Below, one piece after another: positions 3,588 to 22,562 of a stretch of 64,000 nucleotides of DNA. A model generated the notes under the pieces. That model saw only the letters and a list, made by a program, of their open reading frames with translations, was not told the DNA's origin and made no database searches. The stretch is taken from contig CAJWVZ010000002.1 in the NCBI GenBank assembly GCA_913048385.1, positions 62,001-126,000 on the forward strand. Direction: 5' to 3'. Every line of letters starts with the position of its first letter. The first letter of the stretch is position 1. Position numbers and translations under genes: made by a program. The stretch comes from an uncultured Gammaproteobacteria bacterium. GTDB taxonomy: Bacteria > Pseudomonadota > Gammaproteobacteria > Pseudomonadales > Pseudohongiellaceae.

Positions 3588-3759
3588 ACATTAATTTATC
3601 ATTTATTACAATAGCTTATGAGCTATCTGTCATTATTCAGACACAATCAAAAAAGGAAAATTCGAGGTTGCGTCACACTTGTGACAATTTCTTTCTGTGA
3701 TAAATGCGATGGGTCCCGAGACGGGTACTGGGGAGATTTCAGTTGGCCCTGTAAAGGAA

Positions 3760-3862
3760 AAATTTGGTCCAAGGCGTTTCGGGGAAGGAGGTCAGGGTTC
3801 TTCCCCTTCCCGCCTTGGACCAAATTTAGTTGCTGATGCCCCAATCTTATTTGGGCACCTGC
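3760..3862 (-). terminator. Hairpin module copy 1, downstream of flagellin 1
   Basis: Arms 3760-3776 and 3811-3827 are perfectly complementary over 17 bp. Inside the loop GGGGAAG (3781-3787) pairs with CTTCCCC (3800-3806). A second small hairpin follows at 3837-3857. Read on the minus strand, after the flagellin 1 stop, the large stem ends in AAATTTTTCC, as an intrinsic terminator would. A related copy lies at 5132-5233 with two compensatory stem changes, so the RNA fold appears to be selected. The surrounding 3523-3935 gap otherwise holds only the sigma-54 promoter and the hairpin at 3873-3922. Confidence 0.65.
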
Positions 3863-3872
3863 GAATAACGCA

Positions 3873-3922
3873 TCTAGCTGACCTGCCCTGACCTCTCAAC
3901 AACTTTGAACAGGTCAGCTAGA
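3873..3922 (-). terminator. Hairpin just after the flagellin 1 stop
   Basis: Arms 3873-3885 and 3910-3922 pair over 13 bp around a 24-nt loop, 14 nt past the flagellin 1 stop codon. There is no U-run right after it on the minus strand, so it may protect mRNA rather than terminate. The same hairpin lies at 6449-6498 after flagellin 3. Its loop contains the complement of the recurring GAGGTCAG motif. Confidence 0.5.
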
Positions 3923-3935
3923 CTAAGTAAACCTT

Positions 3936-5033: not shown

Positions 5034-5077
5034 GAATCTGACCTCATTCCCTTACTACTTGTCTTAGTTCGGCTCTC

Positions 5078-5104
5078 TAATTTGATAATCATCAAGTCCG
5101 ATTG
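5078..5104 (+). promoter_or_regulatory. Possible plus-strand sigma-28 promoter, antisense to flagellin 2
   Basis: TAATTTGA-N11-TCCGATTG on the plus strand. The -10 is identical to that of the fliS promoter and the spacing is exact, but the -35 is weak. Transcription would start near 5111, cross the hairpin at 5132-5195 and run antisense into the 3' end of flagellin 2. It may be chance. Confidence 0.3.
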
Positions 5105-5131
5105 TTTTTTCCCTTAACTTACTGTTTAGAT

Positions 5132-5233
5132 ATTTGACCCAAGGCGTTTGGGGGAAGGAGGTCAGGGTTCTTCCCCTTCCCGCCTTGGGTCAAATTTTGT
5201 TGCAGGTGCCTCTGGCTTATTGGGCACCCGCGA
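5132..5233 (-). terminator. Hairpin module copy 2, downstream of flagellin 2
   Basis: Arms 5132-5146 and 5181-5195 pair over 15 bp around a 34-nt loop almost identical to that of copy 1. A second hairpin pairs 5205-5210 with 5223-5228. Against copy 1 the stem has G-C to A-T and T-A to C-G changes, both compensated. This copy has no clear U-run, so processing or mRNA protection is as likely as termination. Confidence 0.55.
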
Positions 5234-5244
5234 ACGCTTTGGCA

Positions 5245-5283
5245 GCTGATCTTGGTTTTGTGTACAAAATCTAAAAGATCGGC
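5245..5283 (-). terminator. Hairpin just after the flagellin 2 stop
   Basis: GCTGATCTT (5245-5253) pairs with AAGATCGGC (5275-5283) with one G-U pair. Inside, TTTTGT pairs with ACAAAA. It lies 16 nt past the stop codon, the same place as the 13-bp hairpins after flagellins 1 and 3, though the sequence differs. There is no U-run. Confidence 0.4.
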
Positions 5284-5299
5284 CGCGCGCCTATCGCCG

Positions 5300-6397
5300 C
5301 TATGATAAGAGGCTTAGCGTATGCTCTTTCATCGTATTAGCTTGAGCTAACATCGCCGTTCCGGCCTGCTGAAGAATGGCTTGCTTGGCAAGCGAGGATG
5401 TCTCAAATGCGTACTCCGCGTCAGCTACGACACTCTGCGACTGCGCATGATGCTGAGCGACGTGTGTATGGCTGTCGAATGTGTGCTCTAAACGGTTAAT
5501 ATAGGAGCCGTACCTCGCACGCTCAGTCGCCACAGCGGTGATCGCTTTGTCAAGATTCGTTAACGCAAAGCCTGCGTTATCCTCACTCAGGATATTGATT
5601 CGTGCATCGGCCACACCCGCTCCAATAGCGCCGTTACCGACGAACAAGACGGCAGCGCCGTAAGCCTGCGTCTCCGTGTCCTGAGCACTTAAGTTAGCCG
5701 CTGTCTTGAAACCGTGGTTGTCGTTACCTGTAGCGTCATACCCAGGTCGAGAAGCTGTAGTAACCGTTCCAGCTGCTCCGGCAACCAGTGCAGCTGCAGG
5801 CGCTATTGCGGCTCCTGTGACGGGATTCACTGTCTGCAAGATCGTTGTTGCTTTCACTGCCGCCCTCGGGTCCCAAGACCTAAAATTAAGATTCATGGTT
5901 TGGTTTTCATTTCTACCAACCTGAATCGTGACCTGCGAGGCGTTGACCGCTACAGCGGGAACAGCGCCAGCGGCAGTGTTACCGTCCATCAAGGTCATCG
6001 TGTTCCAAGTTGTCTGAGTTGCGATGCGCTGCATCTCGAGGAATAGTTGACCAAATTCCAAGTCTAAGGCACCCCGATCGGATCCTGTCAAAGTTCCACT
6101 CGCCGCTTGAACAGCAAGCTCCCGCATGCGTTGAAGATTGTTACCAATCTCGACTGCCGCGCCCTCAACGGTTTCGACCATAGAAATTGCATCATTTACA
6201 TTTCTAGCCGCCATCTCAAGTCCAGTGACCTGTACCTTCATCCTCTCGCTTACCGCCAGACCAGCAGCGTCGTCTTGCGCCCCATTGATACGGAGACCTG
6301 TGGATAGCCGCTCCATCGCAACTCCCTGGTCTCTGTCAAATCGATTGACTGCGTTAGTTGCAATCGTAGAAGTAATATTAGTGTTTAAGACTGTCAT
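5300..6397 (-). CDS. Flagellin 2, histidine-rich D1 variant
   Basis: Also 365 residues, with the canonical N-terminal D0/D1 (MERLSTGLRINGAQDDAAG, LQRMRELAVQAA) and a C-terminus ending GTAMLAQANTMKEHTLSLLS. D0/D1 differ clearly from flagellins 1 and 3, while residues about 188-290 are almost identical to them, the reverse of the usual pattern. In the C-terminal D1 helix, five histidines (305, 310, 312, 316, 317) fall in 13 residues (EHTFDSHTHVAQHH) where flagellin 1 has QHAGDNMLNVAQNQ. GAGGTCAG precedes the ATG. Only 42 bp separate it from the flagellin 3 repeat and no promoter is evident, so it may be read through from flagellin 3. Confidence 0.97.
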   Translation of the reverse strand: MTVLNTNITSTIATNAVNRFDRDQGVAMERLSTGLRINGAQDDAAGLAVSERMKVQVTGLEMAARNVNDAISMVETVEGAAVEIGNNLQRMRELAVQAASGTLTGSDRGALDLEFGQLFLEMQRIATQTTWNTMTLMDGNTAAGAVPAVAVNASQVTIQVGRNENQTMNLNFRSWDPRAAVKATTILQTVNPVTGAAIAPAAALVAGAAGTVTTASRPGYDATGNDNHGFKTAANLSAQDTETQAYGAAVLFVGNGAIGAGVADARINILSEDNAGFALTNLDKAITAVATERARYGSYINRLEHTFDSHTHVAQHHAQSQSVVADAEYAFETSSLAKQAILQQAGTAMLAQANTMKEHTLSLLS

Positions 6398-6439
6398 TTC
6401 TCTGACCTCTCTGTAGCATTCAATTTTTTATTTGTTTTA

Positions 6440-7624
6440 AATAACGCATCTAGCTGACCTGCCCTGACCTCTCAACAACTTTGAACAGGTCAGCTAGACT
6501 AAGTAAACCTTTTACTTTAATAATGTTAGTACTGTTTGCTTGGCTTGGTTAGCCTGAGCGAGCATCGCGGTACTCGCCTGCGCAATGATCTGTGTCCGCG
6601 CAAGCTCAGAGGTCTCAATCGCATAATCAGCATCTTCAATACGGCTGCGTGATTGGTCCTGATTCTGGGCAACATTAAGCATATTATCGCCGGCATGTTG
6701 CAGTCTCGAGATGAAAGCACCGTATCGGGCGCGCTCCATAGAAACTGCAGTGATGGCCTTGTCAAGATTCGTCAGCGCAAATCCTGCGTTATCTTCACTA
6801 ACAATGTTAATCCTCGCATCAGCAACACCCGCTCCAATAGCGCCGTTACCGACGAATAAGACTGCCGCGCCATAGGCCTGCGTCTCCGTGTCCTGAGCAC
6901 TCAGAAGTGCCGCAGTTTTGATACCGTGGTTGTCGTTACCTGTAGCGTCATAGCCAGGTCGAGAAGCTGTAGTAACCGTTCCAGCTGCTCCGGCAACCAG
7001 TGCGGCTGCAGGCGCTATTGCGGCTCCAGTCGCTGGATTAACCGTCTGCATGATCGTGGTGGCCTTTACTGCAGCCCTAGGATCAAAAGACCTAAGAGTC
7101 ACCGCCATTGTCTGTGCCGTGCTCTTACCGAGTTGAATATTCACGGTTGTTGCGTTCAAACCGACAGCGGGAACAGCACCAGCGGCGGTATCACCGTCCA
7201 TCAAGGTCATCGTGTTCCATGTTGTTTGCGTCGCGATGCGCTGCATCTCCAGAAATAACTGACCAAATTCCAAGTCCAAGGCCTGTCTGTCTGACCCTGA
7301 ATAGGTACCTGACGCTGACTGAACCGCGAGCTCTCGCATACGCTGGAGTACATTGGCGATCTCAAGTGACGCCCCTTCAACAGTCTCTAACATAGAGATT
7401 GCGTCATTCGCGTTGCGAGTCGCCATTTCAAGGCCGCTGACCTCAGCTCTCATACGTTGGGATATCGCTACACCTGCCGCATCATCTTTGGCCGAGTTTA
7501 TACGGAGACCTGTCGACAAACGTTCCATTGCTGTTTCTTGCAAGCGATCATTTCGGATGATCGCGTTGGTCGCAATCTTGCCGGCAATATTAGTATTAAT
7601 AACACTCATGAATCTGACCTCATT
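6440..7624. repeat. 1,185-bp direct repeat, copy B (flagellin 3)
   Basis: Second copy of the 3864-5048 segment in the same orientation. It includes the 3' hairpin (arms 6449-6461 and 6486-6498), the whole flagellin frame and the ribosome site. Identity stops at 7624 in the leader, so the upstream promoter at 7686-7712 belongs to this copy only. Confidence 0.93.
6512..7609 (-). CDS. Flagellin 3 (identical to flagellin 1)
   Basis: A filament subunit identical to flagellin 1 (365 residues; domains as there). An in-frame ATG 45 nt further upstream would add 15 residues. I chose MSVINTN at 7609 because GAGGTCAG sits just before it and flagellin 1 can only start there. It has its own sigma-28 promoter at 7686-7712 with an adjacent ATTTTT repeat, so it is probably the strongly expressed, late-class copy. 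The divergent neighbour is fliS. Confidence 0.97.
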   Translation of the reverse strand: MSVINTNIAGKIATNAIIRNDRLQETAMERLSTGLRINSAKDDAAGVAISQRMRAEVSGLEMATRNANDAISMLETVEGASLEIANVLQRMRELAVQSASGTYSGSDRQALDLEFGQLFLEMQRIATQTTWNTMTLMDGDTAAGAVPAVGLNATTVNIQLGKSTAQTMAVTLRSFDPRAAVKATTIMQTVNPATGAAIAPAAALVAGAAGTVTTASRPGYDATGNDNHGIKTAALLSAQDTETQAYGAAVLFVGNGAIGAGVADARINIVSEDNAGFALTNLDKAITAVSMERARYGAFISRLQHAGDNMLNVAQNQDQSRSRIEDADYAIETSELARTQIIAQASTAMLAQANQAKQTVLTLLK

Positions 7625-7685
7625 TTTTTGATTCTCGCATTTTCTATTCCGCAAAAATCAGGAGTTTTATTTTGTTACACCTGGC

Positions 7686-7712
7686 CAATCGACATCGACC
7701 TTTTTTATTTTA
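7686..7712 (-). promoter_or_regulatory. Sigma-28 (FliA) promoter of flagellin 3
   Basis: On the minus strand: TAAAATAA-N11-GTCGATTG, with exact FliA spacing and a -10 matching those of fliS, flgM and the flgP operon in this window. The predicted start is near 7680, giving a leader of about 70 nt. Confidence 0.75.
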
Positions 7713-7742
7713 ATTTTTATTTTTATTTTTATTTTTATTTTT
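7713..7742. repeat. (ATTTTT)5 hexanucleotide repeat next to the flagellin 3 -35
   Basis: Five perfect ATTTTT units plus a partial sixth start at the very base where the -35 element ends. On the promoter strand this is an A-rich tract in the place of an UP element. Slippage could change promoter strength in 6-bp steps. Confidence 0.9.
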
Positions 7743-7964
7743 ATTCTTAGCCGTCTCAACCACGGGATTACATGCCGCCTTACCTTCCGTTATAAATTTT
7801 TTATTTCAAATTTCGCAATACAATAATTGTAAAATAAAACCGATGTAATATTATCTCGAAAGCAACATTCAATTAGTAATTTGTATTATTTGTCAAACCA
7901 ATCGACTCATAGCAGGCTGGCTTTAAATGAAATTTACTGATGATTCTATATATAAAGTCGAAAC

Positions 7965-7991
7965 TAAAGTTAGGCCATCAACCTCCGATTG
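7965..7991 (+). promoter_or_regulatory. Sigma-28 (FliA) promoter of fliS
   Basis: TAAAGTTA-N11-TCCGATTG is close to the enteric FliA consensus with exact spacing. Transcription would start near 7998, 33 nt before the chosen fliS ATG. That excludes the upstream TTG at 8001 as a start. The rest of the 7743-7964 gap is AT-rich with nothing else I can name. Confidence 0.85.
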
Positions 7992-8030
7992 GAAACGTAA
8001 TTGAAACAGGTAAAAGAAGAGGTCTGGGGA

Positions 8031-8438
8031 ATGAATTCACTTGCAGCGAAGAGAGCAATGTCAAGCTATCAAAAAGTAGAACGCACGAAGCGGGACACAA
8101 ATAATCCGCAGGAATTAGTGGGTCTCCTGTTCACGGGTTTAACTGACCGTATCGCATCAGCCCGTAAGGCTCTTGCAGAAAATGATCGCACTACTCGAGC
8201 GGAGCAAGTAACAAAAGCACAAAAAATTCTGTTTGGTTTATGCCAGACCCTTGATTTTGAGAAAGGCGGGGAACTAGCTCGCAATCTTTTTAGGCTATAT
8301 GACTACTCAATTAACAAACTCAGCGAAGGTCACGCGCAAGAAGATCAGAAATGCTTCGAAGAAGTACACGACTTAATTTCCACCGTACGTAATGCTTGGA
8401 CCGAGATGCCCTCGGTGGGAAATACTAATCAACAATAA
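8031..8438 (+). CDS. fliS: Flagellin chaperone FliS
   Basis: FliS binds the C-terminus of unexported flagellin and keeps it soluble for secretion. The 135-residue helical protein has the family outline: an N-terminal AYQ-like segment (AMSSYQKVE), then PQELVGLLFTGLTDRIASAR, QVTKAQKILFGLCQTLDFEKGGELA, LFRLYDYSINKL and a C-terminal VRNAWTEM. The ATG at 8031 is preceded by AGAGG at 8-12 nt; the alternative TTG at 8001 lies almost on the predicted transcription start. It is divergent from flagellin 3. Confidence 0.93.
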   Translation: MNSLAAKRAMSSYQKVERTKRDTNNPQELVGLLFTGLTDRIASARKALAENDRTTRAEQVTKAQKILFGLCQTLDFEKGGELARNLFRLYDYSINKLSEGHAQEDQKCFEEVHDLISTVRNAWTEMPSVGNTNQQ

Positions 8439-8547
8439 CGGAGTTAAATGCGTTTGCGCGATTACGACGCCTCCCAATTGCGGAGAAAACATTTTCAAAT
8501 CGCAAATTTTTTTGGGTGGATGATTGTCAAAACCCAAATGCTAACTG

Positions 8548-9702
8548 CTAGTCAATTTTTATCTTGTATTTTGATATTTTCTGAATGACAGAAGTTCGCC
8601 CCATAGTAAGCAACTCAGCGGCTTTGGAAACATTGCCTTCGGTCTGAATGAGCGCGGTGCGAATTAAATTTGACTCTAAATCTTTGATAATATCCCGCGC
8701 GGGAATACCACTTTCTGGTATCGATTCAATTGAATCTGAAAGTTCTATTATCTTTTCAAATTCATTTGCGACAAAACCAGGTTCAGCAAGGTTCTCTGGA
8801 GACTCGACATCATCCTTGTTTGCAAGGTCAGTGGAAGATTGCGGAAGTTGTTCTCCCATTGTTTCGTTTTTAATATCGGATTGTTCTGAAAGACTACTAA
8901 GCTGATTGGCCAGCATCATTAATTCGCTTGGTAAAAACTCCTGGGGAATTGTCCTAAGTTCAATTTTTTTCCCCGGAAAGAGAACTGACAACCTTTGAAT
9001 TAGATTACTCAATTCTCTAACGTTTCCTGGCCAGGAATAAGACTGCAAAAGGTGTATGGATCGCCGTGAAAATGAAATTGGCCGGCTCCCCATCGAAAAT
9101 CTCTCTGCAAAATGTCCGATAAGTTCGGGGATATCAAAATTTCTCTCTTTTAACGAAGGAACAGCTATAGGAATTATATTAAGACGATAGAATAGATCTT
9201 CCCTAAACTTTCCTTCCGAAACCATCTTTTCTATATTTCGGTGGGTCGCCGCTACGACCCTGACGTCAACTTCCACTGCTCTGCTTCCACCGACAGGCTC
9301 AACAACTTTCTCCTCTAAAACGCGAAGAAATTTAACCTGCAGATCCAATGGCATATCACCAATTTCGTCAAGAAAGAGCGTCCCCTTATGCGCAAGTTCA
9401 AACCTACCTAAGCGATCGCACGTCGCCCCCGTAAAGGAACCTTTTTTATGACCGAACAACTCGCTTTCTAGAAGCTGAGCAGGGATTGCGCCGCAATTAA
9501 TTGCAATAAGAGGTTGGGAAAATCGCGAAGATTGCTTATGCAGAGACAGAGAGACGAGCTCTTTCCCTGAGCCAGAGCCGCCGTGAATCAGAACGGTGGC
9601 AGTTGAATCTGCGCACTGGGTAATCAACCGGCGCAGCCGTTTTGTAGCCTCACTACTGCCTAGAATAACAATTTCGTCATCAATATTACGGTTCAAAGAC
9701 AC
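8548..9702 (-). CDS. Sigma-54-dependent activator, FlrA/FleQ-like, without N-terminal regulatory domain
   Basis: A candidate master regulator of the flagellar cascade. The AAA+ domain has Walker A GGSGSGKE (41-48), Walker B GTLFLDEIG, and a contact loop GSFTGA (88-93) where most family members have GAFTGA. A long acidic linker (about 265-340) leads to a Fis-type helix-turn-helix (NVSKAAELLTMGRTSVIQKI). FleQ/FlrA usually carries an extra N-terminal FleQ domain and about 480-490 residues; this protein has 384 and starts at the AAA+ domain. It converges on fliS. The AT-rich 200 bp upstream show no sigma-54 or sigma-28 site. Confidence 0.82.
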   Translation of the reverse strand: MSLNRNIDDEIVILGSSEATKRLRRLITQCADSTATVLIHGGSGSGKELVSLSLHKQSSRFSQPLIAINCGAIPAQLLESELFGHKKGSFTGATCDRLGRFELAHKGTLFLDEIGDMPLDLQVKFLRVLEEKVVEPVGGSRAVEVDVRVVAATHRNIEKMVSEGKFREDLFYRLNIIPIAVPSLKERNFDIPELIGHFAERFSMGSRPISFSRRSIHLLQSYSWPGNVRELSNLIQRLSVLFPGKKIELRTIPQEFLPSELMMLANQLSSLSEQSDIKNETMGEQLPQSSTDLANKDDVESPENLAEPGFVANEFEKIIELSDSIESIPESGIPARDIIKDLESNLIRTALIQTEGNVSKAAELLTMGRTSVIQKISKYKIKID

Positions 9703-9933
9703 AATTAACCCTTAAATAAAACGCCGATTCCTATACTACCGCCATTCTAAAAAATTTTTAACTATTACTATAAAATAAAAGTCATTATAAATCAGCTTGT
9801 TACTGCTTTTTTTTCGATTTTAAAAATTAAAAAAATATTCTTTTACAGACTAAAGTTTCCCACCCCTTGTGTCGACTGGGAAGCTGTCAACTGAATAATA
9901 ATTATTAAGTTGAAGAAGTTCAGAGCGATAAGA

Positions 9934-9954
9934 GGTCAGAGGTCAGAGGTCAGA
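9934..9954 (+). repeat. (GGTCAGA)3 tandem repeat
   Basis: Three perfect 7-bp units. The same unit occurs 6.7 times at 14614-14660 and 1.7 times at 10335-10347. GAGGTCAG is also the ribosome-site sequence of the three large flagellin genes and lies in the hairpin loops at 3787 and 5157. Confidence 0.9.
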
Positions 9955-10729
9955 AGCTGGTAACTCAAAACTCTAATCAACTCCTTTAAGGGGATACTCT
10001 GATGCAAGTCAGCAAGAAAAGGGAAATCGCGTCCGCCGACGTCGCAAATCGAGGTGAAAACCGCCTCGCCTTAAGTTCGGTGGTTCGTTGTAAGTTCTTT
10101 AACGGCTCGTTTCGTAGATCGAAACGTGGCGGTTTTCCTGTGTCCACGATTTCTTCCCCCCTAAATCTAATGCTAGCGAGTGCTAATAGTTGCAGCCTAC
10201 CAGCGACGTCGATCTTCATTGAGTTTTTCTTTGAGGTCGCGGTCTTTTTTAAAAACCTAATTCAAATTTTTGACCGTGTAATACGCAAGTAAGGCGTAAC
10301 GGTAAAACACAAATGCCTGCTAAAACGGGCTCTATCAGAGGTCAGAGACTGATTACTTCCCAAACGGGGAAGAACGAGGACTCATGGCCGAATTTCAATT
10401 TAAGTCGATAACCGACACCCCTGGCGGATCTGCCGTTAGCCCCAACGCGACTAGGATTTTTTACGCTATTCAGCAAATAAAGCGTGGAATGGCGTACCCG
10501 TGCGCGGTTTAAAGTCATAGGCATTTAATGAAGGAGCCCTGAAGGGCGAGGAAAGCGTTCGAAAAATTTCTATCTAAATATCAGCAGGAGCTTGAAATGG
10601 CCTACGAAAAATAGGCAGGAAAATAAAGCGTAGTTTTTGGTATCGGCGAGTTTGTCGTATTGATAACTCTAGATCAATGAGTAATTGGTTTAAGACGAAC
10701 TGAAAAACAAGTCATATCGTGCAACTCAT
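9955..10729. other. Gene-poor stretch with several inverted repeats, possible RNA
   Basis: No convincing gene lies between the activator (ends 9702) and the first small flagellin. What I see is a long-range stem of 10 bp (10056-10065 with 10128-10137) enclosing a 7-bp hairpin (10108-10114 with 10120-10126). There are also short hairpins GCCCT/AGGGC near 10536 and GCCTA/TAGGC near 10600, and another GAGGTCAG (10336-10347). A 42-codon frame at 10384-10512 has a plausible ribosome site but no recognisable product. The stretch could hold a non-coding RNA or the decayed remains of another flagellin. Confidence 0.35.
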
Positions 10730-10756
10730 TAAACTACCTTTATTTTATTTCGATCG
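10730..10756 (+). promoter_or_regulatory. Sigma-28 promoter of the small-flagellin array
   Basis: TAAACTAC-N11-TTCGATCG, with exact FliA spacing and the CGAT core. Transcription would start near 10763, 44 nt before the first small flagellin. Downstream genes to flaG have gaps of 43-294 nt, so one promoter could serve several of them. Confidence 0.6.
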
Positions 10757-10806
10757 GTCGATATAAAATAATTTAACAAATACAGCAAAAACTAAAGGTG
10801 AATAAA

Positions 10807-11658
10807 ATGCATATAGTCAACAATCAGCACAAAGCACATACAGCAATGTTCTCGCTAATGCGAAATGACAGGGACATGACTCGAGCGATGGATCGCCTTT
10901 CAACAGGCAAGCGAATTTCCTCGGCAAAGGATGATGTTGGCGGGTTTGTGATGGCGACTACCTTTGAAAAAGATATTAGAGCAGCAGCTCAAGGCGCAGA
11001 AAATACAAAACATGCGATAGCTCTCCTTGAAACTGTTTCAAGCGCCGCAAACCAGGCCATCAACATTCTTACTCGGATGAAAGAATTAGCGGTGCAGGCC
11101 TCGACCGACGGATATACAACCGGACAGCGCACTAATATGAACAACGAATTTCAAGGTCTGGTTGCTGAACTTACTCGAATTGATACTCAGACCGTCTGGA
11201 ATGGGACTGCATGGATGGATACCGTTAACACCATGAATATCAATTTTGGCGATGCCAATACGATGGCAGTTAACTTCTCTCAATGGACGCCTGGAGATGC
11301 CACAACGGCTGCGACTCAAGCCTATGGTGCAGCAGTCTTTGGGGGCAACGCTGCAAACGACGACTTAACAACAACAGCAAGATCGATTGCTATGGTAAAT
11401 GAAATCGATGTTGCTCTCACAGCAGCAAGTGCAGAAGCTGGTAAATACGGCGCGTATATTAATCGACTTAATCAGTCCCTAGATTCGTTAAAAGGCAGGG
11501 AGCTCTACCTTACTAACACGCTGAGCAAAATTGAGGACGCGGATTACGGAGTTGAGACGGCAGAGCTAGCACGTACTCAGATAGTTGCTCAGGCTGCTAC
11601 AGCGATGTTGACGCAAGCTAATCAGAACAAACAGACAGTAATGGCGTTACTTCAGTAA
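10807..11658 (+). CDS. Small flagellin paralogue A
   Basis: A short flagellin of 283 residues with complete D0/D1 ends and almost no central domain. The N-terminus has MDRLSTGKRISSAKDDVGG and ILTRMKELAVQASTDGY. The C-terminus has TLSKIEDADYGVETAELART and ends ATAMLTQANQNKQTVMALLQ. It is the most canonical of the five array genes. The ATG at 10807 has AAGGTGA 6-9 nt upstream; the GTG at 10798 is part of that ribosome site. It probably polymerises in the filament. Confidence 0.93.
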   Translation: MHIVNNQHKAHTAMFSLMRNDRDMTRAMDRLSTGKRISSAKDDVGGFVMATTFEKDIRAAAQGAENTKHAIALLETVSSAANQAINILTRMKELAVQASTDGYTTGQRTNMNNEFQGLVAELTRIDTQTVWNGTAWMDTVNTMNINFGDANTMAVNFSQWTPGDATTAATQAYGAAVFGGNAANDDLTTTARSIAMVNEIDVALTAASAEAGKYGAYINRLNQSLDSLKGRELYLTNTLSKIEDADYGVETAELARTQIVAQAATAMLTQANQNKQTVMALLQ

Positions 11659-11719
11659 GAATACTGATATTGCCAACAAAGTTTGAGCCACCCGAATTAG
11701 AACTGGAGCTATAAGAAAA

Positions 11720-12610
11720 ATGATTTCAATACAAACAAACATAAACGCGAATAAATTTCTTAATGTTTTAAACAATGTCAATCAGATAACGGATAAGTCA
11801 GTCGAAAGATTATCTACGGGGAAAAAGATAACTTTGGCAAGTGATGGAATAGCGGACTTTTCTATTCAAACAAACCTGAAAAGTGAAATAGTCGGTAAGT
11901 CTCAGGGACTCAAAAATACCAATAGCGCGATTTCAACTTTAAAAACAGTTGAGAGTGCCAGCAATACCATCGTCGACCTATTAGTCCGGTCAAAAGAATT
12001 GGCAACCGAGGCCCTAAACGACGGTTACACCGAACAGCAACGCATTGATTTAAACCGAGAGTGGGTCGGTAATCTTGACGAAATTCGGCGGATTTCTGCG
12101 AACACTGAGTGGAATGACGGTGCTTTGCTCGCAGCTTCTGGTACCTACAGTGTGCGGGTCGATGCCAATACAAGTGTCTCCGGACAAATAAAAGATATGG
12201 CGGTTAACAACGCCAATGCGGCGACCGGAGGATTAGGCGGGAACACCTTCATGAGCTCCGTCGCCTGCCCGCTATGCGGCGGAGATGATCTCCGACACAA
12301 CTTTAGGCGCGACGATGGTTCGACCCGCGAATGCGTGAAGATTACCGCGGCAAGAATAGAAGATGCCCTAGAGTCGGCGGTGACTGAAAACACAACGGTT
12401 AAAGGTTACGTCAACCAAATGGAAATAACTGCCCAAACACTTTCAGCGAGTGTAACGAATTTGAGTAATTCTTTGGGAAAAATAACGGACACCGATTATG
12501 CAGCAGAGACAAGCTATCTAGCGAAAAGCGCGATCATCTCAAAAGCAAGCACCGCGCTCTTAGCGCAAGGAGATCAGGACCATCAGTTAGTAAGCATGTT
12601 ACTAGACTAA
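11720..12610 (+). CDS. Small flagellin paralogue B with a CxxC...C insert
   Basis: A flagellin of 296 residues. D0/D1 are recognisable (VERLSTGKKITLASDGIADF; LLVRSKELATEALNDGYTEQ; C-terminal LGKITDTDYAAETSYLAKSA and LLAQGDQDHQLVSMLLD). The short central region (about 170-207) holds three cysteines in ACPLCGGDDLRHNF...DGSTRECVK, at 183, 186 and 205. Cysteine is rare in secreted flagellins, and CPLCGGDD resembles a zinc-knuckle half. MKELA is replaced by SKELA. It lies 61 nt after paralogue A and is probably co-transcribed. The function of the insert is unknown. Confidence 0.9.
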   Translation: MISIQTNINANKFLNVLNNVNQITDKSVERLSTGKKITLASDGIADFSIQTNLKSEIVGKSQGLKNTNSAISTLKTVESASNTIVDLLVRSKELATEALNDGYTEQQRIDLNREWVGNLDEIRRISANTEWNDGALLAASGTYSVRVDANTSVSGQIKDMAVNNANAATGGLGGNTFMSSVACPLCGGDDLRHNFRRDDGSTRECVKITAARIEDALESAVTENTTVKGYVNQMEITAQTLSASVTNLSNSLGKITDTDYAAETSYLAKSAIISKASTALLAQGDQDHQLVSMLLD

Positions 12611-12904
12611 CTAGCTCTTTGGTTTTTAGAACGAGCAATTAATAAAAGTAAATACGTTCCAGAGGTATCGATGACAAAACATTAAGAGCGTCTTTTAAAG
12701 GTTAATCATTCCGATCGGCGCCGGAATCACAAGGAAAAATTGGACTTAACAGCATAAGCGGGATTGCCTATGGCTCGGCATTTTTGAAAAAAAGCCAGCA
12801 GCAATGAGTTATGAATAAAAGGGATCGGATATAGGTTAATGGAAATACAGGCAAGATTAAATCGAAATCAATACAAAAAGTAGAGAAAGCAAAAAGGTGA
12901 AAAA

Positions 12905-13744
12905 ATGATATCAATCAATACAAACTCGAGTGCAAATTTTGCAATCGACTCTATCAACAACTCCAGTCGAGAGGTTAACAGCTCGATCGTCAGGATTTCG
13001 ACAGGGAAACGAGTCAACAACGGGCTGGGGGTCACAGACACCGCCAGTGCATCGGTAGCAAAGTGGGGAGAGGCGCAGACTCGAAGCTTAGATAGGGGTG
13101 CACAAAACGCGCTAGATGGCGCCGCAATGTTTACACTTTTCGCATCGAAGGGTAACGCGATAGTCAGCCACCTGGCTCGAATGAAGGAGCTGGCAGTGGA
13201 AATGTCTAATCCGGGGTGGTCGGCAATTCAATACGGTTCCGCCAACGCAGAGTATAGAGCTCTGTCGGCGAATATAACGAGCATCGCAGGCCAAGGTTAT
13301 AATAACGGCGCGGTTCCCTTTGGGGCGGGCGGTGCCAGACGCACACACGTAGGTCGCGGTGGTGATATCGTGCAGACGGGCCTCGTGTGGAGCATCGCAA
13401 ATACCGGCACCGCACTCGGCTCCCAAGTGCTCGACGGCCCCGCTAACCTCAACAGTAGCGCCTTATGGAGCGCTGAGATCACTAAACTGGAGACCGCGAT
13501 CCCTGCGGCGGCAGGCGAGGCTGGTGCCTATGCCGCACAAGCCAGATCTCTTGAGACGATAGCACAAGGGATGCGTGCAGAATCAGCAGCGGTAAGTTCG
13601 GGCACGGGGACCGTTCAGAACACTGACTTTGCGGCAGAGACCGCAAGACTGGCCGCCGCACAAATCCGAGCCCAGGCCTCGACTGCAATGCTTTCGCAGG
13701 CCAATACAAAACAACAATACGTCTTAGCATTACTGCAAAATTAA
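12905..13744 (+). CDS. Small flagellin paralogue C
   Basis: A flagellin-like protein of 279 residues. The ends are still clear: MISINTNSSANFAIDSINNS, then IVRISTGKRVNNG, HLARMKELAVEMSNPGWSAI, and C-terminal TVQNTDFAAETARLAAAQIR with STAMLSQANTKQQYVLALLQ. RLSTG has become RISTG and the residues after it are altered. The region about 135-190 is glycine-rich and unlike the other copies. AAAAGGTG precedes the ATG. The 294-bp gap upstream holds a palindromic CCGATCGG near 12710 but no promoter with correct spacing. Confidence 0.88.
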   Translation: MISINTNSSANFAIDSINNSSREVNSSIVRISTGKRVNNGLGVTDTASASVAKWGEAQTRSLDRGAQNALDGAAMFTLFASKGNAIVSHLARMKELAVEMSNPGWSAIQYGSANAEYRALSANITSIAGQGYNNGAVPFGAGGARRTHVGRGGDIVQTGLVWSIANTGTALGSQVLDGPANLNSSALWSAEITKLETAIPAAAGEAGAYAAQARSLETIAQGMRAESAAVSSGTGTVQNTDFAAETARLAAAQIRAQASTAMLSQANTKQQYVLALLQN

Positions 13745-13787
13745 AAAATTATTTGTATATATTTAGGTTCATAAGAAGGGATTGATT

Positions 13788-14588
13788 ATGGTAGCCATCA
13801 CTAATTTCAGCACTCTTACAGCAGTGAACACAGCGAACAATTCAAAGAGCGCAACTAATGTTTCAGTAAAGCGAATCGCGACAGGTAAGGCCCCAGATTT
13901 TGGCCAACGTGGAACCGTAGACGCCCAAGTCAGATCTTTTCAGCAGGGCGCGCGAAACCTAGCAATTCACGCGGGGAGATATGAAGCGTTCGCTGGCATC
14001 GCGAACTCGATCGTTGCACTGACGCAACACAAATTAGAAATTGCCGCCAAATTCTCGCAAACCGGATACGACGCTTCCGAATATTCGGCTGCTGGCGCAC
14101 GATACGTCGCCCTAGATAATTACATTACACAGCTAATCGCAACCCCCCCTATTGGTAGCGGAAATTTTAATGCGATTAAAACAGAAGGATTTGCCAGTGG
14201 TAGCGCCGTTGTTGCCGGGCCCGCGACGCGAGCATGGCAGAGGGCAGCGAACTCTGCGACAGTCACGGGAATAGCCACCGCGCCAATCGTAGCCAACATA
14301 GATTCTGCAGCAGAGTTTGCCGCAGCGATCCCTATTCTGAAACAAGAGGTTGAAAATACATCCGCGTCTGCCGAGGCACTATCCGGTATTGCGCAGGCTG
14401 CGAGCGTAGCGGGCTTTGCTGCCGCGGAGGAGGCGGCGGGTTATATTGCTATTTCAAAAGCACTGAGCACCGATTTAGCCCTCGAAACTGCGAGGATGGC
14501 GACTAACAAAATAGTAAATGAAGCAGCTACAGCAATGGTGGCGCAGGCCGGCCAAATGGAACAAGTGATGCTGAGGTTGTTGAATTAA
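13788..14588 (+). CDS. Divergent flagellin-like protein D
   Basis: 266 residues, still flagellin-like in its C-terminus (LALETARMATNKIVNEAATA followed by MVAQAGQMEQVMLRLLN) and with a weak N-terminal echo (VKRIATGKAPDFG). The D1 MKELAV segment is replaced by HKLEIAAKFSQTGYDASEYS, which is shared with protein E but not with A-C. It lies 43 nt after C. The ATG at 13788 follows AGAAGGG at a 7-nt distance; the ORF's TTG at 13782 is too close to that site. It may be a minor filament, junction or regulatory component rather than a bulk subunit. Confidence 0.8.
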   Translation: MVAITNFSTLTAVNTANNSKSATNVSVKRIATGKAPDFGQRGTVDAQVRSFQQGARNLAIHAGRYEAFAGIANSIVALTQHKLEIAAKFSQTGYDASEYSAAGARYVALDNYITQLIATPPIGSGNFNAIKTEGFASGSAVVAGPATRAWQRAANSATVTGIATAPIVANIDSAAEFAAAIPILKQEVENTSASAEALSGIAQAASVAGFAAAEEAAGYIAISKALSTDLALETARMATNKIVNEAATAMVAQAGQMEQVMLRLLN

Positions 14589-14613
14589 AGAAGCTAGTCC
14601 CGTTTACGGGTGG

Positions 14614-14660
14614 GTCAGAGGTCAGAGGTCAGAGGTCAGAGGTCAGAGGTCAGAGGTCAA
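14614..14660 (+). repeat. (GGTCAGA)6.7 tandem repeat upstream of flagellin-like E
   Basis: Six full 7-bp units and a partial seventh fill the middle of the 113-bp gap between genes D and E and end 41 nt before the ATG of E. As it lies outside coding sequence, copy-number change would alter leader length or the number of GAGGT elements, not a reading frame. Confidence 0.95.
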
Positions 14661-14701
14661 AATTGAGCTCAACTTTAAATTAATTACATAGGAATACAAT
14701 T

Positions 14702-15517
14702 ATGACTGTTACTATAAATACGGGAGCACAAACGGCGGCGGCAGCTGTGTCATCCTTTGGCAGAGCTGCAAATCACGCTGTGACCAACATAGCCAGCGGA
14801 CGGAACGGATCGAATGGAATTCAGGCGGCCTCGCAAGCGCGCGCAACTTCCTACGGTGCCGGTTCTTCAAACATGAGAATCATGGCAGGGCGATATGAAG
14901 GTTATGCAGGACTGGCAAACGCCTTACACGCTTCGTCCCAAGAGCAGCTAGAAATAGCCTCTAAATTCTCACAAACAGGCTATGACGCGTCAGAATATAG
15001 TGCGGCTGCGGCTCGCTATCTGGCACTCCATGACTACATGGATCAAATAATAGCAACTGCCGCGCAGGGTTCTGAGGTTCAGTTCCTCGCTGTAAAAACT
15101 GAGGCCATGGCTCTGGGTGACGCTACGGTTGCCGCGACTGGTATCGGACGAGCTACTATTGCGGGTGCTAACACCACAACTGTAGGTGGTAACGCGGGTT
15201 ATGCTACGGTAGCTAACGTCGCCGCGGTTAACGGTGCTGATGCCATGGCCGCAATCCTTCCAGCTCTAAAGATAGAGGTTCAAAATATGGCTGCGCATGC
15301 CGCTGATGCGGTAAACGCATCTAAGATGTTTCAGTCATTAAGCCTTGCAGCTGGATTCGTAGCTGCCGGCTATTCTGCCCAAGCGGAATCAGCAGGGACC
15401 GACTTCGCTGTTGAAACTGCTAAACTTGCAGCTGCGCAGATTAAAGCCCAAGCGGCGACGGCGATGGTCGCTCAAGCCAGTGTAGTCGATCAAGCCCAGC
15501 TGGCCCTGTTGCAATAA
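14702..15517 (+). CDS. Divergent flagellin-like protein E
   Basis: 271 residues, the most derived array member. The N-terminal LSTG+RI is reduced to VTNIASGRNGSNG. It shares EIASKFSQTGYDASEYSAAA and nearby ARY-AL-DY-QIIAT positions with protein D. The C-terminus (DFAVETAKLAAAQIKAQAAT, then AMVAQASVVDQAQLALLQ) keeps the flagellin D0 pattern. AGGAA lies about 8 nt before the ATG. It is the last flagellin before flaG. The paired divergence of D and E from A-C suggests a separate role kept by selection. Confidence 0.8.
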   Translation: MTVTINTGAQTAAAAVSSFGRAANHAVTNIASGRNGSNGIQAASQARATSYGAGSSNMRIMAGRYEGYAGLANALHASSQEQLEIASKFSQTGYDASEYSAAAARYLALHDYMDQIIATAAQGSEVQFLAVKTEAMALGDATVAATGIGRATIAGANTTTVGGNAGYATVANVAAVNGADAMAAILPALKIEVQNMAAHAADAVNASKMFQSLSLAAGFVAAGYSAQAESAGTDFAVETAKLAAAQIKAQAATAMVAQASVVDQAQLALLQ

Positions 15518-15614: not shown

Positions 15615-16067
15615 ATGGAGAAATTAACAGCAGCAGAATCGATCTCCAGCATCACGGCTAACCAAATGAAGTCGTTGGAAACGGTCTCACGAGAACTTGC
15701 CTCGTTGTCAAAAATCTCAGTTGCGAAGTCTGATGTATCGAGTCCGATAGAGAAGACAACCCAGCTTCGACAAGCAGATCCGAGACTTAAGACTCGAGAA
15801 CTTGAAAGTGCCGGTGAAAATCGAGCTATTTTAAGAAAGGAAGTCCAAGACCGAATTGATGATGTCCTTGCATATTTGAATAACGAAATGCGTATGCGAA
15901 GCCGTCAACTAAAATTTGGAGTGGACCGACAAGCAAACGCTACCGTTATTCAGGTCGTAAGAACTGATACGGGTGAAGTGATTCGGCAGATCCCTTCTCA
16001 GGAGCTATTAGACCTTGCAAACAATTTAGAACAGTTGAAAGGTTTAATGTTTGATGAAGCCTTTTAG
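15615..16067 (+). CDS. flaG: Flagellar protein FlaG
   Basis: FlaG affects filament length in polar flagella. The 150-residue protein has a variable N-terminal half and the conserved C-terminal FlaG domain: MRMRSRQLKFGVDRQANATV, then IQVVRTDTGEVIRQIPSQEL and LDLANNLEQLKGLMFDEAF. AAGGAGAAACT before the ATG is a strong ribosome site. It closes the small-flagellin array and is followed by a terminator at 16106-16144. Confidence 0.95.
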   Translation: MEKLTAAESISSITANQMKSLETVSRELASLSKISVAKSDVSSPIEKTTQLRQADPRLKTRELESAGENRAILRKEVQDRIDDVLAYLNNEMRMRSRQLKFGVDRQANATVIQVVRTDTGEVIRQIPSQELLDLANNLEQLKGLMFDEAF

Positions 16068-16228: not shown

Positions 16229-18574
16229 TTAATCAAAAGCTTTTTGACACCAAAACTGATACATCCCAGAGAAATAAGTTGGATTCTCAACTTCAAAGTT
16301 ATGCCAGATCTCTAGATCATATAGAGCCTCAGGGGCTGAGTTTTGATCGATGAACTCCTTATTATTAATAAGTTCAAAACCTGCGAAATTTAGCCTTAAC
16401 TTTTTTAGGAGGCCTTGAATTTGAAGCAAGGTAAAACGATGTTCCTGCACATGAAAGACAAGATCTCTAAATTCACTGAGGCAGTAGAAATCCGACCACG
16501 TGGTTAATGGAAATAAATCAGGGTGGGTCCGATCTTTTATTTGTTGTCTAAAACTTTTAATGCTCTTTTGATCTGATGCCAGACCAAGGTGTTTTATAGT
16601 GCCTCTCGCCGTTTTTATGTCTCCGCGCGCGAATTCACTATAAAGCGCTATCTTCATTAACCCTCCTGGCTTTAGTCGTTGGACTAACTCGGCCCATCCT
16701 ACCTTAGGGTCTGCCATGTGATGTAAAACACCCGTACTCTCAATTAAATCGAATTGTCTATCAATTGAATGTAGTTGCAAGATATCGCCTTGCATATAAT
16801 CGATGTTGCTAAGCTTTAACTCGTCTGTCTTCCTTTTTGCGTATGCCAAGCTACTTAGGCTCAAATCAACGGCCAGCACATCACAACCCTTAAATCTCGA
16901 TGATGTTTCCAACGCCTGTTGACCGGTCCCGCACCCGGCGACCAAGATTTGCGGGTTGTCGGCAAACAAGATTTCTGTGTTTTCGAACTGGAGATCGAGC
17001 TCCTTTGCCACTTCACTGATAGGTTTGGCATCGGGAGATAGGCATAAATTTATCCATTTAGGGTAAGGGTTTTGCTCATACTGTTCACGAACTTGCACGG
17101 AAATTTTATTGTTCACTTTCCCAAAACAAGCAATCCTAGGCTTAATCTCAATCTCAATTTCTGGTTCACGAATTTGTAGTTTAAGTAGCTCATTTTCCCC
17201 AAGGACCTCAAGTAAATTTCGGGAAAAAGGATGCTGATGAAGATTCTTGTAACTGGCGAGGCAGGCAACTTCATTCATACTTAGCGGACTTGAATTAACT
17301 TTCTTTCCCTCTATGGCTTGAATCAAGCTTTCTAAAGCCTTCTTATCGATCTCTGTTTCCGTATAGATATATTCTGTGATGTAGCACTGTGTGGCGAGGG
17401 CAACCTGGAACTCCAGCGTGGCCGCATCGTCTAAAAAACTAGAAATATTTAACAGGAGCGATAATCTTAGCTTAGTGAAAAGGGCTTCAAACTCTAAATC
17501 GGCTATTGGACAAACCTTCATCAGCTTAAGCAAAAGCGGCACTTTTGATAAACCTGACACAACTTGCTTCAGTGCCTCACTCGACTCAAATTCATCGTAA
17601 GAAATTATGGCCCTCCGCACGAACTCATCGTGCTTCACCAAACTCAATACAGCCTCATTAATTGTATTGGGCCTTACACACCCCGGCTTATCTAGTAGAG
17701 CAGCAATCGCGACACCAACCTCTTCATCAGGCCCTGCGAACCTTATATTTCTCAGAGCCGTACCCAAATTAAATGCTGCTCGCTCATCATCAGGATTAAT
17801 CTGCAGAGCCTTGCTATAGGTCACTATCGCAGCACCAACCTCACCTTGAGCTTGAAGTGAAATGCCCATATTGTTGTATGCTTCGATGTGCTCGGAATTA
17901 AAAGTCAGTGTTTTTTTATAACTTGCAACGGCTCCCTCCAGATCCCCTCTGACGCGCAATATTTCAGCCACGTAAAAATGAGTATCACCGTCCTTCGGCT
18001 GGATCTTAAGACTCTCTTCAAATGCCTGCAGAGCATCGCTATGCTGCGAAAGCTCCAAGTAAGCCAAACCTAAAAGTTTATATAGAATTGCTGAACTCGA
18101 GTTCCTCGATAATAAATCCAGTAATCGCTCCACGGCTTGTTCGAGAAGACCTTGTTCACAGAGGTTAACTATTGCTTGAATTGTTTCTGGAGAAGGAGGT
18201 TTGTTTTCGACCGGATTTACTTCGATTAATGCAATCCTCTCCTCTAACCTATCAAAGTGATTGCCTTGAGCTCCGTTACTTTTTAGCTCAGATAGGATTG
18301 CGCTTGCCTCATCAGCTGAGCCGAGTCTAATCAGCACGTCCAAATAACTTACCCAGTAAGCATCGACGCTCGAATTGACTTTCAACGCTGCCTGAAAGTC
18401 ACCCAAGGCTTCGAGCAAGTGCCCCCCCGCAACAGAAATGAGCCCTACGAAATAATTCGCGTCTGGATGCTCTGGCACCTCTACGAGAATTTCTCTAAAA
18501 AGTTTCTCCGCTTTGCTTAAGTCTCCCGTAGCGTGCGCCTCAACTGCTTTTTTAAACACTTCTTCTGAAGCCAT
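16229..18574 (-). CDS. TPR-repeat protein with C-terminal SAM-dependent methyltransferase domain
   Basis: 781 residues. The first 270 or so are tetratricopeptide repeats (AEKLFREILVEVPEHPDANY; SDALQAFEESLKIQPKDGDT; EAYNNMGISLQAQGEVGAAI). A middle region of unclear fold follows. A class I methyltransferase domain begins near 540 with motif I ILVAGCGTGQQ, then VLAVDLSLSSLAYAKRK, FDLIESTGVLHHM and LKPGGLMKIALYS. Proteins of this make-up are often encoded beside flagellin or glycan-modifying genes. The position next to the flagellin array suggests flagellin or surface-glycan methylation, but that is inference. It converges on flaG. Confidence 0.85.
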   Translation of the reverse strand: MASEEVFKKAVEAHATGDLSKAEKLFREILVEVPEHPDANYFVGLISVAGGHLLEALGDFQAALKVNSSVDAYWVSYLDVLIRLGSADEASAILSELKSNGAQGNHFDRLEERIALIEVNPVENKPPSPETIQAIVNLCEQGLLEQAVERLLDLLSRNSSSAILYKLLGLAYLELSQHSDALQAFEESLKIQPKDGDTHFYVAEILRVRGDLEGAVASYKKTLTFNSEHIEAYNNMGISLQAQGEVGAAIVTYSKALQINPDDERAAFNLGTALRNIRFAGPDEEVGVAIAALLDKPGCVRPNTINEAVLSLVKHDEFVRRAIISYDEFESSEALKQVVSGLSKVPLLLKLMKVCPIADLEFEALFTKLRLSLLLNISSFLDDAATLEFQVALATQCYITEYIYTETEIDKKALESLIQAIEGKKVNSSPLSMNEVACLASYKNLHQHPFSRNLLEVLGENELLKLQIREPEIEIEIKPRIACFGKVNNKISVQVREQYEQNPYPKWINLCLSPDAKPISEVAKELDLQFENTEILFADNPQILVAGCGTGQQALETSSRFKGCDVLAVDLSLSSLAYAKRKTDELKLSNIDYMQGDILQLHSIDRQFDLIESTGVLHHMADPKVGWAELVQRLKPGGLMKIALYSEFARGDIKTARGTIKHLGLASDQKSIKSFRQQIKDRTHPDLFPLTTWSDFYCLSEFRDLVFHVQEHRFTLLQIQGLLKKLRLNFAGFELINNKEFIDQNSAPEALYDLEIWHNFEVENPTYFSGMYQFWCQKAFD

Positions 18575-22527: not shown

Positions 22528-22562
22528 TTTTTCACCTAATTTATGTCAAACCTAGTTGTGGT

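Follow-up and report, generated by a model that had tools for sequence, protein, structure and literature searches.

Five small flagellin genes, A to E, fill a single slot bordered by a sigma-54 activator gene on the left and flaG on the right in the 64,000-nucleotide stretch of DNA from a marine bacterium analysed here (the window; Table 1). The explanation we prefer, with a probability of about one half, is a lineage-specific expansion of core-only flagellins, in which A, B and C would be minor filament subunits and D and E accessory proteins. The same slot in close relatives carries a different five-gene set, so that the array is probably no fixed design but a rapidly evolving supply of filament proteins with minor or accessory roles. 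Multi-flagellin arrays are already known; the array here is a new variant.

Table 1. Features of the flagellin locus, with positions in the window.
Feature	Position	Strand	Remarks
Covarying hairpin	3759..3828	-	downstream of L1; loop AACCCUGACCUC
Large flagellin L1	3936..5033	-	365 aa; identical to L3
Covarying hairpin, second copy	5129..5198	-	downstream of L2
Large flagellin L2	5300..6397	-	365 aa; 76% identical to L1
Large flagellin L3	6512..7609	-	365 aa
fliS, flagellin export chaperone	8031..8438	+	start taken as in-frame ATG 8031; TTG 8001 in ORF list
Sigma-54 activator gene	8548..9702	-	FleQ/FlrC-like by domains; left border of slot
Sigma-28-like site	9851..9878	+	TAAAGT-N15-TCGACTG
AGAGGTC heptamer array	9931..9954	+	3.4 copies; slot-head leader
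Orphan ORF X	10002..10292	+	96 aa; slot head
Imperfect palindrome	10746..10765	+	TATWTCRAYYNGTYGATATA; just 5' of A
Flagellin A	10807..11658	+	283 aa from ATG; GTG 10798 in ORF list; Flagellin_N and Flagellin_C
Flagellin B	11720..12610	+	296 aa; CPLCGG...C insert
Flagellin C	12905..13744	+	279 aa
Flagellin D	13788..14588	+	266 aa; 268 aa from TTG 13782; no Flagellin_N match
GGTCAGA heptamer array	14613..14659	+	6.7 copies; between D and E
Flagellin E	14702..15517	+	271 aa; ten-column deletion as in D
flaG	15615..16067	+	right border of slot
TPR-methyltransferase	16229..18574	-	781 aa; adjoins flaG

The first-pass annotation described five same-strand flagellin genes of 266-296 residues with intact frames, and the array, on the plus strand, is real in each of these respects, as are the motifs quoted for it (LSTGKRI in A, LSTGKKI in B, ISTGKRV in C, IATGKAP in D, IASGRNG in E). 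The Pfam model Flagellin_N scores A, B and C at 101.7, 74.1 and 58.7 bits, above the Pfam cut-off, and leaves D and E unmatched up to an E-value of 1. Flagellin_C scores are 55.1, 33.6, 38.3, 24.6 and 19.6 bits from A to E, so that A to D pass the Pfam cut-off of 23 bits and E falls below it. The increase of divergence along the array is steady for the N-terminal domain but not strict for the C-terminal domain, where C outscores B. E aligns to D with an E-value of 2e-50 (46% identity over 249 columns), and its predicted model matches filament flagellins over D1 with a best Z of 16.5 (rmsd 2.3, 191 residues), values up to about 13 being possibly unspecific for helical models. Since A to D exceed a Pfam flagellin cut-off, and E matches both D and the filament-flagellin fold, the flagellin homology of the array is not by chance.

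In both D and E a deletion of ten alignment columns follows the LSTGK-like motif, ahead of D1; in agreement with this deletion, residue 35 of the E model is the first to be aligned, on chain residue 45. This model, whose confidence is low (pLDDT 53.5, pTM 0.48), also in its D0 parts, points to a retained D1 fold. Foldseek searches returned nothing at E <= 0.001 for the E model; the B model matches flagellins at E 2.9e-10. Identity of B-E to A is 23-34%, and A-E are 16-46% identical to L1-L3 and among themselves, orthologues in genome G028 excepted. The columns invariant across all flagellins here, including D and E, lie mostly in the C-terminal helix. The insert of B has three cysteines, identical in G028. 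Among 46 flagellins counted, cysteines are confined to B and the second and third genes of the sister slots described below (eight rows). The insert matches a zinc ribbon only weakly (DUF2387, E 0.023). Core-only flagellins as such are common, with solved filament chains of 270-281 residues from Caulobacter, Roseburia, Leptospira and Kurthia.

Genome searches with PF00669 and FliS found one flagellar gene cluster serving several flagellins. PF00669 matches seven places (L1-L3, A-C and a FlgL-type gene), all inside the window, and the single FliS gene implies a single export chaperone set. Eight flagellin genes stand at one locus, as first described; since L1 and L3 have the same sequence, these genes encode seven distinct proteins rather than eight. 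Two large flagellins of genome G026 differ by a single synonymous base; together with the identity of L1 and L3, this indicates that conversion or recent duplication occurs at the locus. The TPR-methyltransferase may act in flagellin modification.

In relatives the same slot holds one, two, three or another five genes. Clear orthologues of D and E occur in one of 83 other genus genomes searched, and the only orthologous array found is that of G028, on a contig that stops short of A. Three sister slots, in G026, G034 and G019, have five genes (s1-s5), of which the weakest is the third and not the last; s3 is unmatched by Flagellin_C at E <= 0.001 in all three. The A-to-E gradient is thus absent from these slots, and its interpretation as a conserved design was abandoned. 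In the flagellin tree, a branch sets A-E apart in 94% of the bootstrap replicates (support 91/83), a grouping that long branches make uncertain. Because A-E and the sister-species genes group apart, the two sets appear to be separate, parallel expansions, which is supported but not certain. Orthology of E to the last gene of the sister slots, suggested by the heptamer array that they share, is not supported: a tree joining D/E with s5 is rejected (p-AU 0.0009), whereas a tree joining A with s1/s4 stays acceptable (p 0.14); the groups tested were picked after inspection of the tree, and long branches influence the test.

Comparison with G028, which covers B to E of the array, shows B, C and D to be under strong purifying selection: nonsynonymous changes make up one of nine differences in B (p 6e-5), two of 25 in C (p 2e-12) and none of 13 in D (p 2e-8). 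Maintenance by selection, first argued from the intact frames, is thus borne out for these three genes; intact frames do not show it for E, where 16 of 24 differences are nonsynonymous (omega 0.69) and neutrality is compatible (N/S test, p 0.26). The same test does not separate flaG from neutrality (p 0.12). Amino acid changes in E affect none of the 120 residues of the ends and 12 of the 151 of the centre (p 0.0015), with limits drawn after the changes were known. For s1-s5, omega between G026 and G034 is 0.027-0.112. Synonymous divergence (dS) from G028 is 0.04-0.12 for B-E, compared with 0.54-0.83 in one flank (sel1, two motB genes) and 1.3-3.2 in the other (fliF, fliE, flrC), and the array block is therefore much closer to G028 than either flank. 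With divergence so far below both flanks, the block was probably exchanged recently by recombination between species, an interpretation that is supported rather than certain.

At the slot head, the sigma-28-like site aligns with the corresponding site of relatives, with a spacer one base longer. ORF X starts at the position taken by a flagellin in G027 and G071. Of five orphan ORFs of this kind, the four searched (those outside G034) are unmatched in Pfam up to E 0.1, and likeness is seen only between G026 and G034 (32% over 58 aa). With one mismatch allowed, the palindrome ahead of A is still unique in the genome. It is overlapped by a full sigma-28-like match (10730-10756), which may be due to chance; with up to two mismatches allowed, the window has 22 such matches against 9.9 expected. 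For sigma-54, the best match had both the GG and GC pair in none of 26 genes. Terminator-like sites on the plus strand are absent between the array genes, with one region within D. Across the genome, heptamer arrays stand at two sites, one before ORF X and one before E, and thus within the slot; G028 has one unit fewer between D and E. They are not a genome-wide repeat, as the slot accounts for each of the 25 matches in six genomes of the genus. In an order-wide sample, two of 390 genomes besides the present one (G000) had matches, with one genome matched by a reversed control, and no flagellins were seen within the 7-8 kb read around the matches in those two.

Under the expansion hypothesis, a core-only flagellin gene would have multiplied in tandem within the activator-flaG slot of this lineage, and all five products would be exported by the flagellar apparatus encoded at the locus. 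A-C would be minor core subunits built into the filament of L1-L3 and would tune its surface or shape. D and E, without the stretch ahead of D1 but with D1 and the C-terminal helix, would be accessory proteins (end, junction or secreted) and not bulk filament. A sigma-28-like promoter and the palindrome ahead of A may govern how the array is expressed, and translation of E may depend on the heptamer box. Selection by phage or grazers would suit both the variation in the centre of E and the block exchange.

The odds on the competing explanations overlap, as separate genes may differ in role. D and E may be unable to polymerise, and a minority possibility is that they (and perhaps B) are exported but never enter the filament, acting outside the cell. 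The lost Flagellin_N match and missing columns suggest this, as do s3, likewise without its signature, and the restricted distribution of cysteines. Precedents are reported in Vibrio FlaE/FlaF, in biofilm, and Campylobacter FlaC (PMC6692518; PMC4863622). In Vibrio, too, flagellin-like genes outnumber filament subunits (PMC6692518); there, FlaE/FlaF are described by secretion and polysaccharide binding. The C-terminal helix with most of the invariant columns, present in D and E, and the D1 fold of the low-confidence E model argue against exclusion from the filament. It is improbable that a divergent member, before its own export, controls how the other flagellins are translated, with the heptamer leaders as target, as reported for the Caulobacter paralogue FljJ (PMC7591256); a box is common to several flagellin leaders here, but the FljJ partner FlbT had no match in the genome at E <= 0.001, with a positive Caulobacter control.

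An array of duplicates in decay, or a silent reserve from which expressed flagellins are converted, would account for the nonsynonymous changes of E and for the identical or nearly identical large flagellins. Constraint on B-D and s1-s5, full-length reading frames in 26 of 26 small slot genes from six genomes with diverged slots, and identities of 16-46%, which would be too low for ordinary conversion, make such an origin unlikely. We give equally little credence to the segmented filament suggested in the first-pass annotation, in which each subunit would form its own zone and the zones would follow the order of the genes. Zoned filaments are on record, with several flagellins in defined places of one polar filament, for Bdellovibrio (FliC3-5-1-2-6; PMC2791853) and Shewanella putrefaciens (FlaA/FlaB; PMC6299084), but the Bdellovibrio flagellins are described as several similar species, whereas B-E are far from A. 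The sister slots do not keep the order of divergence, and a crude scan placed promoter-like and palindromic sites at the array head only.

The covarying hairpin lies downstream of a flagellin gene on the same strand, and its loop is complementary to the flagellin ribosome-binding box. It occurs at 17 places in eight of 84 genus genomes; 14 adjoin flagellins and the other three lie at contig ends beside flrC-fliE-fliF. An Rfam search of the window gave no match at gathering score, and the genome has an Hfq gene. A speculative reading, which we consider doubtful, is that loop-box RNA pairing sets flagellin output. The loop CUGACCUC in the 3' UTR of major flagellins would pair with the box GAGGUCAG of large-flagellin leaders, the heptamer arrays ahead of ORF X and E would be multi-site targets or sponges, and E and its counterparts would be produced only while transcripts of the major flagellins are in short supply. 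Proteins of the D/E type would be non-filament flagellins produced through this switch. Co-evolution of loop and leader suits G026 and G027 but not G000, and was rejected; the G000 loop pairs weakest with its own heptamer leaders (-18.7 versus -27.4 kcal/mol for the G026 loop). The small RNA FliX of E. coli derives from the fliC 3' UTR. It is reported as a sigma-28-dependent RNA acting on flagellar output and is in this respect similar, but it pairs in coding sequences (PMC10578931), whereas the predicted hairpin offers its loop to a ribosome-binding box. Tandem TAACTGA heptamers 5' of start codons, with translational control proposed, are described for marine Beggiatoaceae at 169 sets per genome (PMC4679880), compared with two places here, both in the slot. 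The portions of the literature consulted describe neither this locus nor a heptamer-hairpin pair at flagellins.

Among known arrays, those of the Magnetococcus type, with 14 flagellins in MO-1 and 15 in MC-1, mostly tandem, are similar in having many tandem paralogues, and all 14 MO-1 flagellins are reported in filaments (PMC7175107). Here, five core-only genes share one slot, two are without the N-terminal signature, and the set differs in sister species. The Stenotrophomonas maltophilia fliC1C2C3 operon is also tandem, but with a reported identity of 67-82% (PMC8998449), unlike the present array.

Sister species fill one slot with differing sets of diverged flagellins, mostly under measurable constraint. 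One array, moreover, looks recently exchanged between species. Many bacteria have several flagellins, and the slot is a natural experiment on the purpose of the extra ones. If the hairpin-heptamer pairing is true, the locus would be a compact case in which the mRNA of a major surface protein controls its minor relatives.

The five flagellin genes of the array, A to E, are intact in the ORF listing at the place where the first-pass annotation had put them, with the sizes and motifs it had described. They occupy the slot, the interval bounded by a sigma-54 activator gene and flaG in a large flagellar gene cluster whose gene names, apart from those with a Pfam result, were assigned by eye from sequence. 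Beyond the activator lie fliS and the large flagellins L1, L2 and L3. Because L1 and L3 are identical, the window encodes seven distinct flagellins rather than the eight subunits first counted. The proposed rise in divergence from A to E holds at the N-terminus, where similarity falls, but not strictly at the C-terminus, where C scores higher than B. D and E share 46% identity. Searched with PF00669, the complete 2.52 Mb genome shows seven places, all within the window (L1-L3, A-C and a FlgL-type gene); the domain is not found in D or E.

L1 and L3 show zero DNA differences across the coding region, and the identity extends downstream at least as far as 3864/6440. A comparable large-flagellin pair in the sister species G026 has one difference; we read both pairs as recent conversion or duplication.

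Coordinates of features in the window (G000) and in regions fetched from related genomes
Feature	Position	Strand	Remarks
Hairpin, loop region almost invariant	3759-3828, 5129-5198	-	downstream of L1, L2
Post-stop hairpin	about 3873-3922 and 6449-6498		right after L1 and L3 stop codons
L1	3936-5033	-	large flagellin
L3	6512-7609	-	large flagellin
Sigma-54 activator gene	8548-9702	-	slot border
ORF X	10002-10292		orphan ORF, slot head
A-E	10807-15517	+	small flagellins
flaG	15615-16067	+	slot border
TPR-methyltransferase	16229-18574		between flaG and ClC gene in G000 and G028
motB-like genes	21286-23801		two, adjacent, beside motA-like gene (by eye)
FlgL-type gene	27335-28252		PF00669 match
ORF X, relatives	L054:6561-6965; L056:3637-4212; L059:3652-4233		a fifth in L055
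Flagellin-flaG units, G071	L075:3985-7420		two, consecutive, very similar

Twenty-one regions were fetched from relatives; flagellin ORFs were listed for each, and complete ORF tables were made for 16. The number of slot flagellins is one in G027, two in G007, three in G011 (with rearranged neighbours) and five in G000 and in each of the sister species G019, G026 and G034. B-E are seen in G028, whose contig stops 35 bases upstream of B. G071 carries a flagellin-flaG unit twice, which may reflect incipient array growth or an artefact of assembly. In G067 the interval from fliS to flaG contains four flagellins. Neither a slot flagellin nor flaG was seen in the stretches examined from G020, G093 and G095, absences that are weak since several contigs are cut. 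Six genomes (G000, G028, G007, G019, G026 and G034) are classed as having a diverged slot; G011 and G067 have several slot genes but of ordinary similarity, and fall outside this set.

In a midpoint-rooted tree of neighbouring proteins (up to six per genome, 15 genomes), the six diverged-slot genomes share one side with 100/100 support, G000 and G028 standing next to the other four. The flagellin tree, with 45 sequences, places A-E (nine rows) together on one side of a branch (support 91/83, 94% of bootstraps), and the sister-species slot flagellins, s1-s5, stand apart in two groups; long branches are flagged in this tree, and the A-E grouping may change. The simplest reading would be one clade whose slot became expansion-prone, with each half of the clade expanding it independently. 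A D+E profile run against 84 genus genomes exceeds 100 bits in G000 and G028 only; C follows at about 80 bits, and the rest of the matches, none above 40 bits, are other flagellins. E alone as query against 58 genomes gives the same picture.

The claim that selection maintains all five genes stands for B, C and D, in which nonsynonymous changes between G000 and G028 (1 of 9, 2 of 25 and 0 of 13 differences) are far under the neutral expectation. It is not borne out for E, where 16 of 24 differences are nonsynonymous (p 0.26); flaG is likewise not distinguishable from neutral (7 of 12, p 0.12). All amino-acid changes in E fall within residues 78-228, with 0/120 residues changed in the ends and 12/151 in the centre (p 0.0015, the limits having been chosen after the changes were seen). 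Between G026 and G034, omega for s1-s5 is 0.027-0.112, but dS is high (0.7-2.5), and the ends are not always better conserved than the centre (16/120 vs 22/214 changed in s2; 25/120 vs 37/189 in s3).

From B to the ClC gene, G000 and G028 differ by 0.4-10.4%, mostly 1-5% (250-base bins), compared with 6-17% in sel1 and motB and 15-28% in the fliF-flrC flank (500-base bins). The corresponding dS values are 0.04-0.12 for B-E, 0.54-0.83 for sel1 and motB, and 1.3-3.2 for fliF, fliE and flrC. The simplest cause would be recent sharing of the array block through recombination. Few changes therefore underlie the B-E omega values.

AlphaFold models are poor to middling for both B (pLDDT 61.8, pTM 0.59) and E (pLDDT 53.5, pTM 0.48). 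The B model matches flagellins clearly (E 2.9e-10); the top Foldseek rows for the E model are flagellins, yet none reaches E <= 0.001. VIA-align fits the E model to an H. pylori FlaB chain over 191 residues (Z 16.5, rmsd 2.3), pairing residue 35 with 45, or 36 with 46 in other rows. This modelled offset is in line with the ten-column alignment gap of D and E, whose missing stretch we take to be the D0-D1 'spoke'. B has three cysteines, the same in G028. Each of the three sister genomes has one in s2 and two in s3 (as C-x-C), and cysteine is missing from the remaining 38 of the 46 flagellins counted.

Among loci whose ORF tables were read, the TPR-methyltransferase is absent from the remaining slots. 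Its TPR and transferase combination resembles that of Caulobacter FlmG, in which the TPR portion binds flagellins (PMC7591256).

The leader at the slot head carries a (GGTCAGA)n array, and another precedes E. Three tandem copies are found in six of 84 genus genomes, exactly the diverged-slot six, with 25 of 25 matches in the slot; a reversed-heptamer control gave no matches in the 84. In each of the six, an array precedes the last small flagellin, and each of the five with a covered slot head has one there too; before E, G028 has one unit fewer than G000. Large flagellins have a single heptamer-type box at ribosome-binding distance. The leader after the head array ends in CTCTGATG, identical to the flagellin start in G027 and G071, and is followed in five diverged-slot genomes by ORF X (96-193 aa), which is not a flagellin. 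These ORFs are mostly dissimilar among themselves, and composition shuffles reach their lengths 10, 0, 0, 0 and 0 times in 5000; each could be a gene or a remnant.

A sigma-28-like form derived from upstream regions, TAAAST-N14-YCGATYG, has exact matches in front of fliS and of A, reaches 22 matches in the window at up to two mismatches (9.9 expected), and also occurs near slot heads in several relatives. The palindrome TATATCGACCGGTCGATATA precedes s1 in relatives, and a less perfect version precedes A; it has a single match in G000, occurs only within the slot in G007, G019, G026 and G034, and has a one-mismatch match in six other genus genomes as well. No terminator-like sites were found on the plus strand in the gaps between array genes.

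An alignment of the hairpin downstream of L1 and L2 takes in twelve copies, 11 of them distinct, found in five genomes. Under a structure derived from the folds of these copies, pairing holds in 97.5% of cells, and both sides show changes in seven of the 22 pairs. Covariation is 0.321 vs 0.198 in shuffles, none of 500 reaching it; further pair types (16) are not above shuffles (17.9), and the inner stem alone is weaker (6/500). G-U pairs and model scores (79-92 bits on the flagellin strand vs 32-52 on the other) favour placing it on the flagellin strand. A genus-wide search (60 candidates scored per genome, strict filters) finds it at 17 or more places in at least eight of 84 genomes. Fourteen of the 17 adjoin flagellins; the other three (one in G028, two in G036) sit at contig ends and immediately precede flrC-fliE-fliF, an order also seen in the window. 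It was not found in G007 or G019, whose large-flagellin regions are cut. The loop region of the post-stop hairpin includes GAGGUCAGGG, a sequence complementary to the 3759-3828 hairpin loop, and a loop-loop contact is possible.

The hairpin loop, CUGACCUC, is complementary to GAGGUCAG. The 64 kb window has 15 non-overlapping GAGGTCAG sites on its two strands, all within 3788-14653; two are the hairpins themselves and two are inside L1 and L3. Among 52 gene starts (some assumed), predicted pairing to the loop is strongest for L2, E, X, fliS, L1 and L3, with A-D among the remaining ranks; flagellins and X together (nine starts) exceed the others at one-sided p 0.027. The loop also resembles the anti-Shine-Dalgarno sequence of 16S rRNA, so part of its pairing with ribosome-binding sites is trivial; loop-leader co-evolution is not consistent, and the hairpin may be simply an elaborate terminator. 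A putative regulatory role for loop and heptamer box would be new and testable.

The segmented filament suggested at first is possible, without specific support. The array is real, largely selected and fast-changing, and its products are probably minor or accessory flagellins. Multi-flagellin loci are already known, and this array is a new variant among them.
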